Source: Candidatus Latescibacterota bacterium
Lineage (GTDB): Bacteria; JAAXHH01; JACQVL01
Direction: 5' to 3'
NCBI GenBank assembly: GCA_016209865.1
Contig: JACQVL010000010.1
Coordinates: 1 to 5,335, forward strand
Length of the DNA stretch: 5,335 bases
A program made the position numbers and the translations under genes. The notes under the pieces are model-generated. The model saw nothing but the letters and a program-made list of their open reading frames with translations, was not told where the DNA came from and made no database searches. Below, one piece after another: positions 2 to 5,335 of this stretch (position 1 is its first letter; the number at the start of each line of letters is the position of its first letter).

Positions 2-3000
2 GGCGGCACGCGCGGGACGCTCGCACGCGGGTTCACCTACCTCAAGGTGGACTCGGTCACGGTGTCGCTGACCGTCACCGCCAATGTCTCCGGGACGGCG
101 CGGACGGACACCGTCCACACCGCCCGGCTCCCAGAGGGACTGCCGTTCATCACTCCTCAGAAGACCGCACCGGTCGCCGCCCTGCAGCGCCTGTTCGATG
201 CCTTAGCTGGACTGGCACTGGAGATCCCGCCCGGAGCGATTGACCAGAACATCACGGTGTCCCTCGATGTCCGCAACGTGACCATCCGGAACGACAGCAC
301 GATGTTCGCCCCCATCAACGGACGGCCGTCGTTCCTGTTCATCCATCCGGCCGTCAGCGTCAACGGGGTCGAGCAGCCGAGGTTCGACTTCTCCGGCCGG
401 GCGGCGATCAACCTGACCGTCCTCCTGCGCAAGTTCGGCCGGATTCTGCAGGCTTCCGGAGTGGACACGACGGCGGCGGACACCCTCGCCCTCGCCTACG
501 TGACCCCGTCCGGCCTGACGCAGGAGGGGATGATCTCCAAGTCCCGGCACGACGACCGACTGATCATCGCCAGCCTGACGACCCTGGCCGACTTAGCGGG
601 CATCCGGCAGCGGGACCTTACCGTCAACACCGCGCCGCCTGCCATCGTCTCCGGGCCGTTCGTCGTGCCCAGCGATACCTTCGCCACCGTCACCTGGCGG
701 ACGGATAAACTCACGACGAGTCGGGTGGAGTTCGGCACCGGTCAGACGCTCGCCGCCCTCACGCAGGCCGTCACCGATACCCAGCTCGTCAACGGCCACG
801 TCGTCGTCCTGGGGACCCTGGTTCGTCAGACGAAATACTATTACCGGGTGATTTCCGAGGACGACCGCGGCCAGCGCGTCGCCAGCCGCATTCTGTTCTT
901 CTCGACCGTCAACCGTCCCGACGTCCGTCCCCCAACGCTCACCGTCAAGCCCCAGGTGCTGGCGGTCGCCCCGCACAACGCGGTCATCGGATGGATCACC
1001 GACGAACTGAGCACGAGCACGGTCGAATACGGACCGACCGCCGCCTTAGGGACGATCAGAACCCACGACGCTCTGGTCATCCGGCACGTCCTCGCCCTGC
1101 ACGGTCTGGCGCAGAGCACGACCTACTCCGCCCTCGTCAGCTCGGCGGACGGGAGCGGCAACGTAACCGCCTACCCGGATACCCTCGTCTTCACCACCCC
1201 GGCCGCGCCGGACACCCTCCCACCCCGGCTCCTCAGCCGGCCGGTCGTGGCTGGACTGACGCCGACGAGCGCGATCATCCAGTGGACGACCGACACGCCG
1301 AGCGACAGCCGGGTGACGTACGTGGCGGTCGGGACGGCGGACACCCTGCGGGCGGTGAACACGGAGGAACCGCTGGCCCAGCAGCACAGCGTGACGCTGA
1401 CCGGCCTGACGCCCGACACCGCGTACCTGTACGTCGTCCGCTCGACGGATCAGGAGGGCAACCCGGTCGCCAGCCGGGCCGGACGGTTCAAGACGCCCGC
1501 GACGGCGGACACCACCCCGCCCGTCATCATCCGCGGCCCGGCCGTCCTGTACGCGTCCGATACCGTAATCGCCATCGGCTGGGTGACGGACGAGGTGAGC
1601 GATGGGTTCGTCTACTACAAGGGAAGCGGCGACAGCACGTTCACCTCGCATGGTGTGCCCGCTCAGTCCCGCCGGCACATCGTCTTCATCGGGGGGTTGA
1701 CGAGCGGGGAGACGTACACCTTCGCCCTCACCTCCACCGATCCGAGCGGGAACACCACCGTCTTCCCACCCGGCACCGTCCTGTCGAAGCCGGTCGCGCA
1801 GGCGCGGCCAGTGGTGATCTCCGCATCCGGCGGTACGTTCACGACCGCGTCCGAACCAGACGTCCAGCCGCCCGTCATCACGGGCGGGCCGCGGGTGGTC
1901 GCCCGGACATCCACCTTGATCACGATCTCGTGGGAGACGGACGAGCCGGGCAACAGTCAGGTGTGGTACGGCACCAACCTGAGCCAGCAGGCGACCGATA
2001 CGGACTTAGTGACCGCTCATCAAGTCACGCTCACCAACCTGTCGGCCGGGACGACGTACCCCTACCAGGTCGGGTCGACCGACCCGGCCGGGAACGGCCC
2101 GACGTGGAGCGCGCAGAGCGCCGCGACGACGGCGACCACCGCCGATACCGAGCCGCCGGTCATCCTGTCCGGCACTGTCCGCACCGCCGTCTCCAACGAC
2201 CGGGTGACCGTCTCCTGGGAGACGGACGAGCCGTCGGACAGCTTCGTGCAGTACGGCACCGCCCCGGACGCGCTGACCTCGATGGTGGATGAGGCCGACC
2301 TGGTCACGTCGCACACCGTCGTGTTGACCAACCTCAGCCCGAATCAGGCGTACTCCATCCGGGCGACGTCCACCGACCTGGCGGGCAACGGCCCGACGGC
2401 GACGACCGCCCTGAGCGTCACGACGACCGCCACGGCGGACACGGCCCGGCCGGTCGTCAGCGGCGTCCAGGCGAACGCGGTGGCGACGACGGATACGAGC
2501 GTGACGCTGACGGTCGCCTGGCAGACAGATCGCTTAGCGACGAGCGTCGTCGAGTACGGCACCACGTCCAGCCTGGGATCGAGCGTGACGAACACGACGA
2601 CCGGGACCGTCCATCAGACCGTCATCCCCCGGCTTCTACTCGGCACCCGGTATTTCTTCCGCGCCGGTTCCGCCAGCGCGACCGACCCGCAGGGCAGCCG
2701 TCTGGCGTACAGCACGACGAGCAGCCTGACCACCCCGGCAAGCGTTGACACGACGACGCCCGCCGCGCCGGCGGCCGTGACGGCCATTCCGGGTGACGGG
2801 GCGGCGTACCTCCGCTGGACTCCATCGCCCAGCGCGTCGGTCACGGGGTATACGATCCTTCGGAACGGGAACGCACTCGCCACAGTCGGACGGGATTCCA
2901 CGTTCCTCGATGTCAGCGCGACGAACGGGCAGGCGCAGTCCTACACCATCCGGGCGATCAGCGCGATCGGGAAGACGAGCCCGCTTTCGGCTTCTGCCTC

Positions 3001-3691
3001 GGCCACACCTCACTCCAATCAGGTTCCCACCGCGCCCGCGTCGAGCAGTCCGGCGTCCGGGGACACCGTCTCCCTCGCCCCGGTCCTCGTCATCGGGAAC
3101 TCCTCGCCCGTCACCGGCGACCCGGCACGTGCGGCGCTGACGTACAGGTTCCAGGTGGGGGCGGATTCCGCGTTCTCCACGCTCGTCGCGTCGGTCGTCG
3201 GGGTCGCGCAGGGCGTCTCCGGCAACCCGACCCACTGGAAAGTCGAGGACACCGGACTCCCCGGCGTATCGCTCCTCCAGAGCGGGGAGCGGTACTGGTG
3301 GCGCGGTCGGGCGAACGACGGCATCTTCAACGGCGCCTGGTCGACGCCCCGGACGTTCGTCGCCAGCGCGAGCAAGCCGACGGGGATCACGCCGGGACAT
3401 CTCTCCGTCACCCGGCAGTTCGCGCTGAGACAGAACGTCCCTAACCCGTTCAACCCGGCGACGGCGATCCGGTACGACCTGCCGCGTGCCGCGCAGGTGA
3501 CGCTCAGGGTGTACAACCTCCTCGGTCAGGAAGTCGCCGTCCTCGTCGATGCCCGTCAGGAGCCAGGGTACTACACCGTCCGGTGGGATGGCCGGAACCG
3601 TGCAGGCGTCTCGGTCGCCAGCGGCCTGTACTTCTACCGCCTGCGGGCCGGGGAGTTCACCAGGACAAAAAAGATGATGCTGGTGAGATAA
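2..3691 (+). CDS. Giant secreted/surface protein with tandem FN3-like repeats and a C-terminal type IX-type sorting domain (5' end missing)
   Basis: The frame is open from the left edge (first complete codon at 2). A GTG at 47 is the first usable start codon, but it has no ribosome binding site and the protein pattern continues upstream of it, so I treat the gene as truncated by the window. 1229 residues are visible. Counting from the GTG: about 1-195 is a beta-rich region containing 'LEIPPGAIDQNITVSL', reminiscent of ZU5-type IPPGA motifs; 196-901 holds seven FN3-like repeats; about 907-995 is a classical FN3 domain; about 996-1108 is another Ig/FN3-like domain with 'RYWWRGRANDG' and 'GAWSTPRTF'; 1125-1214 is the sorting domain. 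The repeats resemble the N-terminal domain of purple acid phosphatases. No catalytic domain is visible, so adhesion, matrix or envelope structure is the likely role. The product should be exported across the outer membrane and then processed or anchored; the signal peptide lies upstream of the window. The substrate or binding partner is unknown. Confidence 0.9.
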   Translation, partial: GGTRGTLARGFTYLKVDSVTVSLTVTANVSGTARTDTVHTARLPEGLPFITPQKTAPVAALQRLFDALAGLALEIPPGAIDQNITVSLDVRNVTIRNDSTMFAPINGRPSFLFIHPAVSVNGVEQPRFDFSGRAAINLTVLLRKFGRILQASGVDTTAADTLALAYVTPSGLTQEGMISKSRHDDRLIIASLTTLADLAGIRQRDLTVNTAPPAIVSGPFVVPSDTFATVTWRTDKLTTSRVEFGTGQTLAALTQAVTDTQLVNGHVVVLGTLVRQTKYYYRVISEDDRGQRVASRILFFSTVNRPDVRPPTLTVKPQVLAVAPHNAVIGWITDELSTSTVEYGPTAALGTIRTHDALVIRHVLALHGLAQSTTYSALVSSADGSGNVTAYPDTLVFTTPAAPDTLPPRLLSRPVVAGLTPTSAIIQWTTDTPSDSRVTYVAVGTADTLRAVNTEEPLAQQHSVTLTGLTPDTAYLYVVRSTDQEGNPVASRAGRFKTPATADTTPPVIIRGPAVLYASDTVIAIGWVTDEVSDGFVYYKGSGDSTFTSHGVPAQSRRHIVFIGGLTSGETYTFALTSTDPSGNTTVFPPGTVLSKPVAQARPVVISASGGTFTTASEPDVQPPVITGGPRVVARTSTLITISWETDEPGNSQVWYGTNLSQQATDTDLVTAHQVTLTNLSAGTTYPYQVGSTDPAGNGPTWSAQSAATTATTADTEPPVILSGTVRTAVSNDRVTVSWETDEPSDSFVQYGTAPDALTSMVDEADLVTSHTVVLTNLSPNQAYSIRATSTDLAGNGPTATTALSVTTTATADTARPVVSGVQANAVATTDTSVTLTVAWQTDRLATSVVEYGTTSSLGSSVTNTTTGTVHQTVIPRLLLGTRYFFRAGSASATDPQGSRLAYSTTSSLTTPASVDTTTPAAPAAVTAIPGDGAAYLRWTPSPSASVTGYTILRNGNALATVGRDSTFLDVSATNGQAQSYTIRAISAIGKTSPLSASASATPHSNQVPTAPASSSPASGDTVSLAPVLVIGNSSPVTGDPARAALTYRFQVGADSAFSTLVASVVGVAQGVSGNPTHWKVEDTGLPGVSLLQSGERYWWRGRANDGIFNGAWSTPRTFVASASKPTGITPGHLSVTRQFALRQNVPNPFNPATAIRYDLPRAAQVTLRVYNLLGQEVAVLVDARQEPGYYTVRWDGRNRAGVSVASGLYFYRLRAGEFTRTKKMMLVR
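632..2749 (+). repeat. Seven tandem FN3-like repeats of about 95-115 residues
   Basis: Each unit starts with a PP-containing strand such as 'APPAIVSGP', 'TPPVIIRGP', 'QPPVITGGP' or 'EPPVILSG'. It continues through a W-x-TD-(E/K/R/T) turn ('TWRTDK', 'SWETDEP', 'AWQTDR'), a 'VEYG/VQYG/VWYG' strand, an H-x-V-x-L-x-x-L segment and a Y-x-(Y/F/V)-x-V/A-x-S-x-D-x-x-GN strand, and ends with an F-x-T-P/T-T-A linker and 'ADT' or a similar motif. Repeats 5 and 6 share an identical 18-base stretch at 1931-1948 and 2216-2233, 285 bp (95 codons) apart, pointing to recent duplication or gene conversion. Repeat 4 is longer because of an insertion of roughly 20 residues before its final strand. Confidence 0.85.
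3419..3688 (+). other. C-terminal FlgD-Ig-like / type IX secretion type A sorting domain
   Basis: The last 90 residues of the long protein begin 'FALRQNVPNPFNPATAIRYD'. They continue with 'VTLRVYNLLGQEVAVL', 'GYYTVRWDGRNRAGVSVASG' and 'LYFYRLRAGEFTRTKKMMLV', and end in R just before the stop codon. This is the standard order of motifs in C-terminal sorting domains of Bacteroidota and related phyla, where they direct cargo through the type IX secretion system. In several candidate phyla the same fold is annotated as a FlgD Ig-like domain, and dependence on type IX secretion there is presumed rather than shown. Confidence 0.9.
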
Positions 3692-3702
3692 GAGGTTGAA
3701 CC

Positions 3703-3730
3703 TTGACAAGACGATTCGTCTCAGTCTGAT
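3703..3730 (+). promoter_or_regulatory. Possible sigma-70-like promoter just outside the left cassette border
   Basis: TTGACA at 3703-3708 is a perfect -35 hexamer. It is followed 16 bases later by TCTGAT (3725-3730), a weak -10 with 4 of 6 matches and no A at position 2. It lies between the stop codon of the surface-protein gene and the first cassette core site and points into the cassette. If active it would act like an external cassette promoter, with a leader of about 120 bases before the antitoxin. The weak -10 keeps confidence low, and consensus elements differ between phyla. Confidence 0.22.
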
Positions 3731-3735
3731 TGAGC

Positions 3736-3742
3736 GTTGGGC
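3736..3742 (+). other. Left cassette junction: R'-type core site GTTGGGC
   Basis: GTTGGGC matches the integron core consensus GTTRRRY, with the crossover expected between G3736 and T3737. It marks the left end of the toxin-antitoxin cassette. The preceding bases 'TGATTGAGC' resemble an L' box, but I find no complete attC upstream. The only candidate left arm is the imperfect core GTTGAAC at 3695-3701, which pairs poorly. The site may be the right end of a decayed attC, an attI relic, or a genomic site used as a target. Confidence 0.7.
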
Positions 3743-3766
3743 CCCGCACAAATAGAGGCTGAGGAC

Positions 3767-3795
3767 TTGCATTCGCTCAGAGTTCTCAGTATCTT
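3767..3795 (+). promoter_or_regulatory. Candidate internal promoter/operator of the toxin-antitoxin operon
   Basis: TATCTT (3790-3795, 4 of 6 matches to TATAAT) lies 17 bases after TTGCAT (3767-3772, only 3 of 6 matches to TTGACA), about 65 bases before the antitoxin start. CTGAG at 3759-3763 and CTCAG at 3776-3780 form an inverted pair, and CTCAG recurs at 3785-3789, so these short repeats overlap the -35/-10 region. This would suit an autoregulatory operator, common for toxin-antitoxin operons. The promoter match alone is weak. Confidence 0.25.
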
Positions 3796-3859
3796 TGAAG
3801 CTAGACTTAGAGGGGCTCAAATTCCTCATACTCTCTCTCCGAAGACAGCGAGGTCAACG

Positions 3860-4099
3860 ATGCGAGTCGAAGCGATCAAAGTCGACAACGGTTTCTTGAT
3901 CCCCCTCAGCGAGGGATTCCAAGACATTACCCAAGACCGCCTCCTCTTAGAAGTCGAAATTCTTGATCCCCAGCAAGCCGAGGCCGGGTATACGGCTTTA
4001 GACCAGCTGGTCGGCTGCTGTGAGACGGGCCAGCCGGACGCCTCCGTCCAGCATGATCAGCACATCTATGGGCGCCGAGGGAGCCATGATCTTCGTTGA
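3860..4099 (+). CDS. VapB-like antitoxin of a PIN-toxin pair
   Basis: This 79-residue protein should neutralise the PIN ribonuclease encoded just downstream. ATG 3860 is chosen because GAGGT (3850-3854) lies 5 bases before it and the protein then starts directly with a conserved-looking strand, 'VEAIKVDNGFLIPLSEGF'. Other segments are 'ITQDRLLLEVEILDP' (23-37), 'YTALDQLVGCCE' (44-55) and 'DASVQHDQHIYG' (60-71). From memory, small proteins of this pattern, 'GFLIP ... LLEVEI ... LDQLVG.CE ... DAS..HD..IY', occur next to PIN genes in cyanobacteria and other bacteria; I cannot run the search. The N-terminal half would be the dimer or DNA-binding part and the polar C-terminal tail the toxin-binding part (inference). 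I see no classical helix-turn-helix, AbrB or Phd motif. Its end overlaps the toxin start by 14 bases, which implies translational coupling. The 'VapB-like' label rests on context and pattern. Confidence 0.75.
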   Translation: MRVEAIKVDNGFLIPLSEGFQDITQDRLLLEVEILDPQQAEAGYTALDQLVGCCETGQPDASVQHDQHIYGRRGSHDLR

Positions 4100-4499
4100 C
4101 ACGGGGGCGTGGATTGCGCTCTCCGATAAATCGGATCAATATCATCGGCAGGCGAAGGCGATTTACACCCGGCTGAAGCGGCGTCGAGCGCGGTTCGTGA
4201 CCACCGATTACGTGATCGATGAGACGACGACCCGGTTGCGCTATGATAGTGGGCATGCCAGTGCGGTCAAGTTTTTGGAGGTCATTCGGACGGCGGAACA
4301 GGCGGGGATTCTCCGGGTGGTCGCCATTACGCCGGCCGTGTTCCAGACGGCGCAGACTCTCTTTCGCCAATATGATACGGTGGTGCTGTCGTTGACGGAT
4401 TGCACGAGTTTTGCCGTGTGTGAGCAGCATCAGGTGTCGGAAGCTTTTGCCTTTGATCAACATTTTCCCCTCCGAGGCATCACGCTCTGCACCAAATAG
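4086..4499 (+). CDS. PIN-domain ribonuclease toxin (VapC-like)
   Basis: This 137-residue protein has the normal length for a single PIN domain. The four acidic active-site positions are recognisable: D5 in 'MIFVDTGAWIAL', E46 in 'DYVIDETTTRL', D105 in 'LSLTDCTSFAV' and D124 in 'FAFDQHF'. PIN toxins of the VapC class are Mg2+-dependent endoribonucleases that cut tRNA, rRNA or mRNA in the cytoplasm; the target cannot be read from the sequence. ATG 4086 is preferred because the protein then begins at the first PIN strand and GAGGGAG (4077-4083) lies just upstream. ATG 4068 in the same frame would add six residues. The gene overlaps the antitoxin by 14 bases, forming a two-gene operon with the antitoxin first. 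All catalytic residues are intact, so the toxin is probably active. It ends 28 bases before the attC, giving a compact cassette. Confidence 0.92.
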   Translation: MIFVDTGAWIALSDKSDQYHRQAKAIYTRLKRRRARFVTTDYVIDETTTRLRYDSGHASAVKFLEVIRTAEQAGILRVVAITPAVFQTAQTLFRQYDTVVLSLTDCTSFAVCEQHQVSEAFAFDQHFPLRGITLCTK

Positions 4500-4527
4500 G
4501 GTTCTGCCCTCCTGAACAGGGTGCGGG

Positions 4528-4655
4528 GCCTAACAACCGCTTGCAGGCCGTCTGGAACCCGGCCCTGCTTGTGGGTGTGCTGAGCATAATTCTGCCGCTC
4601 TGCCTGTCGCTGGCGTCGCTTCATGGGTTCCAGCGGCTGAAGCGGGGCGTTGGGC
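4528..4655 (+). other. Integron attC recombination site (128 bp)
   Basis: The outer cores are GCCTAAC (R'', 4528-4534, RYYYAAC) and GTTGGGC (R', 4649-4655, GTTRRRY), which pair with one T-G wobble. Unpaired spacers follow: AACC (4535-4538) on the left and GGGGC (4644-4648) on the right. The inner arms, 4539-4560 and 4625-4643, form a 19-bp stem that is perfect apart from three single extra bases on the left arm: G4543, one G of 4546/4547, and T4551. The first falls inside the L'' box, where attC sites carry an extrahelical base that sets strand choice and orientation. The variable terminal structure is 4561-4624 (64 bases). All of these proportions fit known attC sites, which range from about 57 to 141 bp. 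Confidence 0.88.
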
Positions 4656-4676
4656 TGCCCACCAAGGGGGCATCAG

Positions 4677-5090
4677 ATGTCCGCGGAAGCACCACGCGAA
4701 GATCTCGGCCGGAAGCATCAGCTCCACGGAGTTCAACCTGTTCTTCCGGTAAGAGACGTCACAGCGAGCGCCGAGTACTTCCGTGACGTGCTCGGCTTCG
4801 AAATCGACTTCTTGGAGGGCGATCCTCCGATTCACGGTCGTGTCACGAAGGGCGACGGAACGTATGGCCAACCGGTCTACATCCATCTCTCAAAGGCCGC
4901 GCCCGAGGAGGTGCGTCCCAGCGGAGAGCTCCGGATCCATGTCGGCCATGATCTCGACAGCCTGTTTGAGGCGTATCGCGACCTTGAGGTCGAGGTTGTC
5001 TTCGCACCGGTCTCGCAACCCTGGGGGCTTCGCGAGTTTGCAGTGCGCGAGATCAATGGTCACGTCCTGAGATTCTGCAGTGAAGCGTAG
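4677..5090 (+). CDS. VOC-superfamily (glyoxalase/bleomycin-resistance-like) protein
   Basis: This 137-residue protein is the usual size for a single-chain VOC protein made of two beta-alpha-beta-beta-beta modules. The first module shows 'GVQPVLPVRDVTASAEYF' and 'RDVLGFEIDFLEGDPPIHG' (18-54), followed by 'QPVYIHLSKAAPEE'. The second shows 'GELRIHVGHDLDSLFEAYRD' and ends with 'QPWGLREFAVREINGHVLRF' (114-133), the typical closing motif of bleomycin-resistance-like members. Such proteins either bind and sequester a small toxic compound or, with bound metal, isomerise, cleave or conjugate it. The substrate is not predictable here, and resistance to a specific drug should not be assumed. ATG 4677 has AAGGGGG (4664-4670) 6 bases upstream. 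The gene follows an attC directly and reads away from it, as cassette cargo does; VOC genes are common cassette cargo. It would be cotranscribed from an upstream promoter, since I see none of its own. Confidence 0.87.
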   Translation: MSAEAPREDLGRKHQLHGVQPVLPVRDVTASAEYFRDVLGFEIDFLEGDPPIHGRVTKGDGTYGQPVYIHLSKAAPEEVRPSGELRIHVGHDLDSLFEAYRDLEVEVVFAPVSQPWGLREFAVREINGHVLRFCSEA

Positions 5091-5096
5091 GTGGCG

Positions 5097-5129
5097 GCTC
5101 AACAAGGCCTGGAGCAAAAAGGGTTGAGT
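5097..5129 (+). other. Candidate truncated or internally deleted attC
   Basis: GCTCAAC (5097-5103) fits RYYYAAC, and GTTGAGT (5123-5129) fits GTTRRRY; the two are complementary at 6 of 7 positions. 'AAGGCCTGGAGC' after the first core looks like the left arm of an attC. The distance is only 33 bp end to end, no matching right inner arm exists, and no other GTTRRRY occurs before 5335. This is either a remnant of the second cassette's attC or a chance hairpin of about 6 bp. It lacks a T tract, so it is not a standard terminator. Confidence 0.4.
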
Positions 5130-5187
5130 CGGGCGGAACTTCATGCGGGCGCCCTGCAACGACACGGATCCGCGCCACCCTACCTCC

Positions 5188-5195
5188 AGGAGGAA
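5188..5195 (+). promoter_or_regulatory. Strong Shine-Dalgarno site for the PhyH-family gene
   Basis: AGGAGGAA at 5188-5195 lies 5 bases before ATG 5201 (7 bases counted from AGGAGG). It is a near-perfect match to the anti-Shine-Dalgarno sequence, fixes the start codon, and is the strongest ribosome binding site in the window. No clear promoter is visible in 5130-5187. Confidence 0.85.
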
Positions 5196-5200
5196 GCGCT

Positions 5201-5335
5201 ATGGCGAATCCACTCCCACTCGTTGTCTATCCGAGTCTGGCGCAACAGGTCGAAGCCCTGGAACGGGACGGCTTCGTCTGTCTTCCGGGGGTGCTCACCC
5301 CCGATGACATCGCTGCGCTGCGGAACAGCATGGAC
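5201..5335 (+). CDS. Phytanoyl-CoA dioxygenase (PhyH) family protein, N-terminal fragment
   Basis: The first 45 codons are visible, and the gene runs off the right edge. After a short lead, the residues 'LAQQVEALERDGFVCLPGVL' (13-32) followed by 'TPDDIAALRNSMD' match the N-terminal signature of PhyH-family Fe(II)/2-oxoglutarate oxygenases: a helix, 'E-x-DGF-V-x-LPGVL', then an acidic turn and the 'IAALR' helix. These enzymes hydroxylate or otherwise oxidise a wide range of small molecules; in environmental bacteria most have unknown substrates. The H-x-D...H metal ligands and the 2-oxoglutarate-binding arginine lie outside the window, so activity cannot be judged. The start is secured by the strong ribosome binding site. 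It could be ordinary chromosomal DNA or cargo of a third cassette. Confidence 0.85.
   Translation, partial: MANPLPLVVYPSLAQQVEALERDGFVCLPGVLTPDDIAALRNSMD

Follow-up and report, generated by a model that had tools for sequence, protein, structure and literature searches.

A lone integron cassette with a putative VapBC-like gene pair beside a non-integron gene in an uncultured bacterial lineage

The feature analysed here is a genuine integron cassette that adjoins a non-integron gene, and we consider it probable that this cassette, which appears to carry a VapBC-like gene pair, was inserted at a chromosomal site other than attI by the genome's own integron integrase (IntI), encoded on contig C306. 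The window, meaning the whole stretch of 5,335 bp that was analysed, is the entire contig C93 of a 3.75-Mb draft genome in 356 contigs, estimated to be 83% complete with a contamination of 1.7%. Direct support for this reading comes from the attC site and the borders of the cassette, from an intact integrase gene, from a family of attC sites that is found both in an array and elsewhere in the genome, and from one locus, on contig C17, where relatives have an empty site. The parts themselves are of known kind, and the point of interest is the natural scatter of lone cassettes together with one comparative empty site.

The cassette is 913 bp long (3737-4649, forward strand). Its first bases are the TTGGGC that follows the left crossover and its last base is the G preceding the right one; the two core sites, G3736|TTGGGC and G4649|TTGGGC, are spaced 913 bp apart. 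Of the 13 bases after the left G, 12 are those that the R'' arm predicts for the cassette start; when the region was dinucleotide-shuffled 1000 times, no shuffle reached 12. The features expected of an integron cassette are all found, namely a start that is complementary to its own R'' arm, core sites at both ends and one gene or operon inside. The GC content of the cassette is 0.576, compared with 0.684 for the gene on its left.

The attC recombination site of the cassette is 128 bp long (4528-4655, forward strand), beginning with R'' GCCTAAC at 4528 and ending with R' GTTGGGC at 4655, and it has R'', L'', L' and R' boxes, a foldable bottom strand and a G|TT crossover. A leave-one-out covariance model, trained on five further attC sites from this genome with the window's own site excluded, places it at 4524-4657 with 106.5 bits (E 4e-30), its sole match in the window. 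As single-stranded DNA the bottom strand takes the form of a long, imperfect hairpin, the stability of which (z -2.96) was equalled by none of 200 shuffles; furthermore, stem pairs altered on both sides, that is compensatory changes, occupy 10 cells in the six best sites of the genome, compared with a shuffle mean of 4.8. Core sites, a full attC, complementary ends and a 913-bp cassette had all been claimed in a preliminary description of this DNA, which proposed an attC covariance-model search of the full contig as a check and took the lack of a hit at 4528-4655 as a refutation, and each of these claims is borne out by the border match and the covariance model. An Rfam scan of the window returned nothing relevant, a null which weighs little because we are aware of no Rfam family for attC. 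A short attC just to the left of the left core (3688-3744) was considered and rejected, as its fold (z -1.26) was matched or beaten by many shuffles.

No second attC was found by a full-sensitivity scan of the window, the best candidate, at 5093-5131, scoring only 5 bits. In IntegronFinder terms a single attC without an adjacent integrase is a SALIN and a cluster of attC sites without one is a CALIN, the latter usually being regarded as degraded integrons (PMC9024848, PMC12690207). The window holds one detectable attC and is therefore a SALIN rather than a CALIN: exactly one attC with no adjacent intI is what is seen, within the 5335-bp contig only, and the two or more attC sites of a CALIN are not present in the window, which is bounded on its right by the contig end. 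A cluster of attC sites, one of two options offered previously, thus gives way in the window to a single detectable site.

One gene of the cassette (4086-4499, forward strand) encodes a PIN-domain protein of 137 aa, a predicted VapC-like toxin, that matches PF01850 with 50 bits (E 4e-13) against a cut-off of 23.6. The NCBIfam VapC model gives only a weak match to this protein, and its plasmid-borne relatives carry PIN/VapC annotation. An ORF of 79 aa (3860-4099, forward strand) overlaps the start of the PIN gene and is probably its antitoxin; a family search with it gave no match, and it shares a short C-terminal motif with the ORF that precedes a PIN gene on a plasmid of Salinibacter ruber. 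The cargo as a whole therefore looks like a VapBC-type toxin-antitoxin pair, as far as its function can be predicted from sequence. It has been held that relatives with the same gene pair at this place and no core sites at its borders would speak against a cassette, and the PIN gene is absent from all 15 same-order relatives. Among viral contigs no relatives of the PIN protein were found, and the attC sequence pattern had no match there. In having a toxin-antitoxin-like pair as cargo the cassette is similar to the toxin-antitoxin cassettes of the chromosomal integrons of Vibrio cholerae (PMC11023631), from which it differs in that its predicted pair is PIN/VapC-like and lies outside an array.

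To the left, outside the cassette, lies the C-terminal part of a large gene (2-3691, forward strand) of at least 1229 codons, which is cut by the window start, where its frame is open, and which has its stop at 3691, 45 bp before the core. Pfam matches in this gene include FN3-like or purple acid phosphatase N-like repeats and a C-terminal FlgD-Ig or CHU_C-like sorting tail. The preliminary description was right that the left neighbour is neither intI nor attI, and that it is a gene of more than 3.6 kb with a stop codon 45 bp from the core. The 45-bp spacer (3692-3736, forward strand), which ends in the left junction G on the host side of the join, has no attC-like fold. The large gene has paralogs in its own genome and an ortholog in the same-order relative G013, where it is followed by unrelated DNA with no attC and no PIN gene, the far flank there being different from that of the window, so that this comparison yields no strict empty site for the window, a point against the insertion reading.

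The right flank (4650-5090, forward strand) begins with TTGGGC and contains a glyoxalase/bleomycin-resistance-like gene (4677-5090, PF00903), close relatives of which were not found in the order. The right core, GTTGGGC, is followed by bases that partly repeat the left cassette start, and this flank may be a host gene or may be a former cassette that no longer has its attC. Further to the right, at 5164-5335, is the start of an ORF that by eye only is like a PhyH-type oxygenase; the opening 172 bp show 97% identity with C15:143-314, and the preceding DNA differs. The stretch resembling C15 is a recent duplication, and it was probably this that ended contig C93.

There is no intI on C93, and the adjacent intI and attI of a complete integron are lacking in the window. 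The statement that the cassette is without an integrase therefore holds locally but not for the genome as a whole, since contig C306 encodes an intact integron integrase (TIGR02249, 478 bits) with cassettes of its own. This IntI aligns over its full length with IntI1, with conservation of the integron-specific region and of what we take to be the recombinase residues, and its identity is 65% with an integron integrase of a Kovacikia plasmid, 58% with one from the relative G001 and 52% with IntI1. Diverging from the intI gene are an attI-like junction and two cassettes, one with a HAD-like hydrolase gene and the other with an ORF that has a lipoprotein-like start. Both cassette starts agree with their own R'' arms, and the attC sites, the second of which is cut by the contig start, belong to the same family as that of the window. 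With its intI, attI-like junction and cassettes with mutually similar attC sites, C306 is like a sedentary chromosomal integron; however, only two cassettes precede the end of the contig and most attC sites of this genome are found on other contigs.

Further strong attC sites were identified with covariance models on C17, C40, C57 and C52, and eroded, weak ones on C77 and C115. The family is spread across at least 7 contigs with a mean column identity of 74%, and five of the seven well-preserved sites are found on contigs without intI. Class 1 integron attC sites, which had no part in the training, were detected with these models as well, and the best score among the 15 same-order relatives, for each of which the best 150 first-look candidates were scored, was 23.3 bits.

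The clearest comparison is provided by C17, where an attC lies between divIC and recO in a gap of 795 bp that also contains two small ORFs. Each of the 15 same-order relatives has eno, divIC and recO side by side, the last two being 7-72 bp apart, and the locus is a comparative empty site in these relatives. The left border on C17 disagrees with its own R'' arm, which counts against the reading preferred here. The cargo there (L012, 2875-3467) consists of two overlapping small ORFs with no family match. On C52 a thioredoxin-like gene is found between the attC and a left border that agrees with the R'' arm, with a non-integron gene on each side; the ortholog of the C52 HEAT gene in relative G011 has no adjoining thioredoxin-like gene, and the far flank is not common to both. 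Neither C52 nor C57 thus gave a strict empty site. Both C52 borders (L113: 3635, 4742-4750) and the right border on C57 (L112, about 1016) have GAT for GTT. The target consensus of integron integrase is of the G(A/T)T type, and the GAT borders could be such targets or could be the result of mutation. A left border was looked for and not found for the cassettes of C57 and C40. An eroded attC-like hairpin on C115 (L013, 6693-6822, reverse strand), in which the R boxes are not clear, is situated some 200 bp beyond the point where a PhyH-like ORF (7027-7221) ends and looks like a decayed cassette site.

If the genome's own IntI was responsible for the insertion in the window, the cassette would first have been excised as a circle, after which the bottom strand of its attC would fold to a hairpin with IntI binding the R and L boxes. 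IntI would then have joined the G|TT of the attC to what was presumably a short core-like target 45 bp past the stop of the large gene, so that a single cassette came to stand between core sites, and a toxin-antitoxin pair with its own control could persist away from the array. A non-classical genomic site, the second of the two options raised previously, is the better supported, given the scattered attC family and the empty site at the C17 locus. Insertion of cassettes at ordinary chromosomal sites (attG) has been described from experiments in E. coli (Loot et al. 2024, Nat Microbiol, doi 10.1038/s41564-023-01548-y, as reported in PMC12444791, PMC12901181 and PMC12690207). The likeness is that cassettes lie outside attI and attC, at ordinary chromosomal sites, with an integrase in the cell, whereas for the uncultured lineage studied here insertion is deduced from the layout of the sites and from the comparison at C17, where relatives have an empty site. 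By the usage of PMC12690207 the window cassette then counts as a SALIN, its integrase being encoded on another contig. It is like other SALINs and CALINs in that no intI adjoins its one attC and one cassette, but differs in that the genome has an intact intI elsewhere, associated with the same attC family, and that there are several scattered single sites.

Because five of the seven well-preserved attC sites are on contigs without intI, it is conceivable that in this lineage IntI regularly scatters single cassettes over ordinary sites of the chromosome, where they would persist and slowly lose their attC, and that insertion outside the array is one of their main fates, a generalisation that we put forward tentatively. 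Off-array insertion is known from experiment, but its natural weight is less clear. With lone cassettes occurring naturally at several loci and in several stages of decay, and with the C17 empty site in 15 relatives, this genome could allow its rate and fate to be measured by comparison. Such lone cassettes are overlooked by annotation of proteins only.

Since the DNA after the right core looks like a cassette start, the window could instead mark where a small or broken array ends. It would then be the edge of a former or split array (a CALIN), with the glyoxalase gene as a second cassette, its attC since decayed, and the PhyH-like gene perhaps as a third. The bases after the right core GTTGGGC, which partly repeat the left cassette start, are in keeping with this, as are the absence of a close match to the glyoxalase gene in relatives and the eroded attC downstream of the end of the PhyH-like gene on C115. 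It would nevertheless seem rather unlikely, as the window gave no second attC on full-sensitivity scanning, the left neighbour is not an integron gene and shows neither attI nor an attC-like fold, and single cassettes lie between non-integron genes on C17 and C52.

It is very improbable that the hairpins are a dispersed REP- or MITE-like repeat which resembles attC and is not moved by IntI, with borders that are coincidental. The sites are indeed alike and scattered over at least 7 contigs, as such a repeat would be, but two copies belong to a regular array next to intI and have borders in agreement with their arms, models of the family recognise class 1 integron attC sites outside the training set, no shuffle equalled the left border of the window, and each copy is accompanied by different genes. 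That C93 is an artefact of assembly or binning, with unrelated pieces joined or DNA of another organism in the bin, is scarcely credible despite the fragmented, incomplete draft and the repeat of part of C15 at the right end of C93, given the low estimated contamination, the presence of the same attC family on C17, where the eno-divIC-recO order equals that of the relatives, and the paralogs and G013 ortholog of the large gene.

Insertion by the genome's own IntI thus remains our preferred reading of the window. Of the relatives with which the genome was compared, the nearest share only its order and the next nearest only its domain. Attempts to trace the attC sites more widely gave three attC-pattern matches in the genome contig collection, which were rejected as chance matches with the 3' half missing, and palindrome-pattern matches in same-order relatives, which proved to be unrelated sequences. 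Integrase genes are known from some of these relatives: G001 has two integron-integrase-like genes (C397:1866-2810 and C98:260-1213, with 59% and 50% identity), and integron-integrase fragments are found in G013 (C235) and G011 (C300). None of these three integrase-bearing relatives was found to have attC sites of the present genome's family.

Finally, the attC on C40 lies 113 bp from the contig end, and shortly before this attC is a transposase-like ORF (L111, 3930-4931) beside a truncated-looking ORF end, as if the cassette had been interrupted by an insertion sequence.
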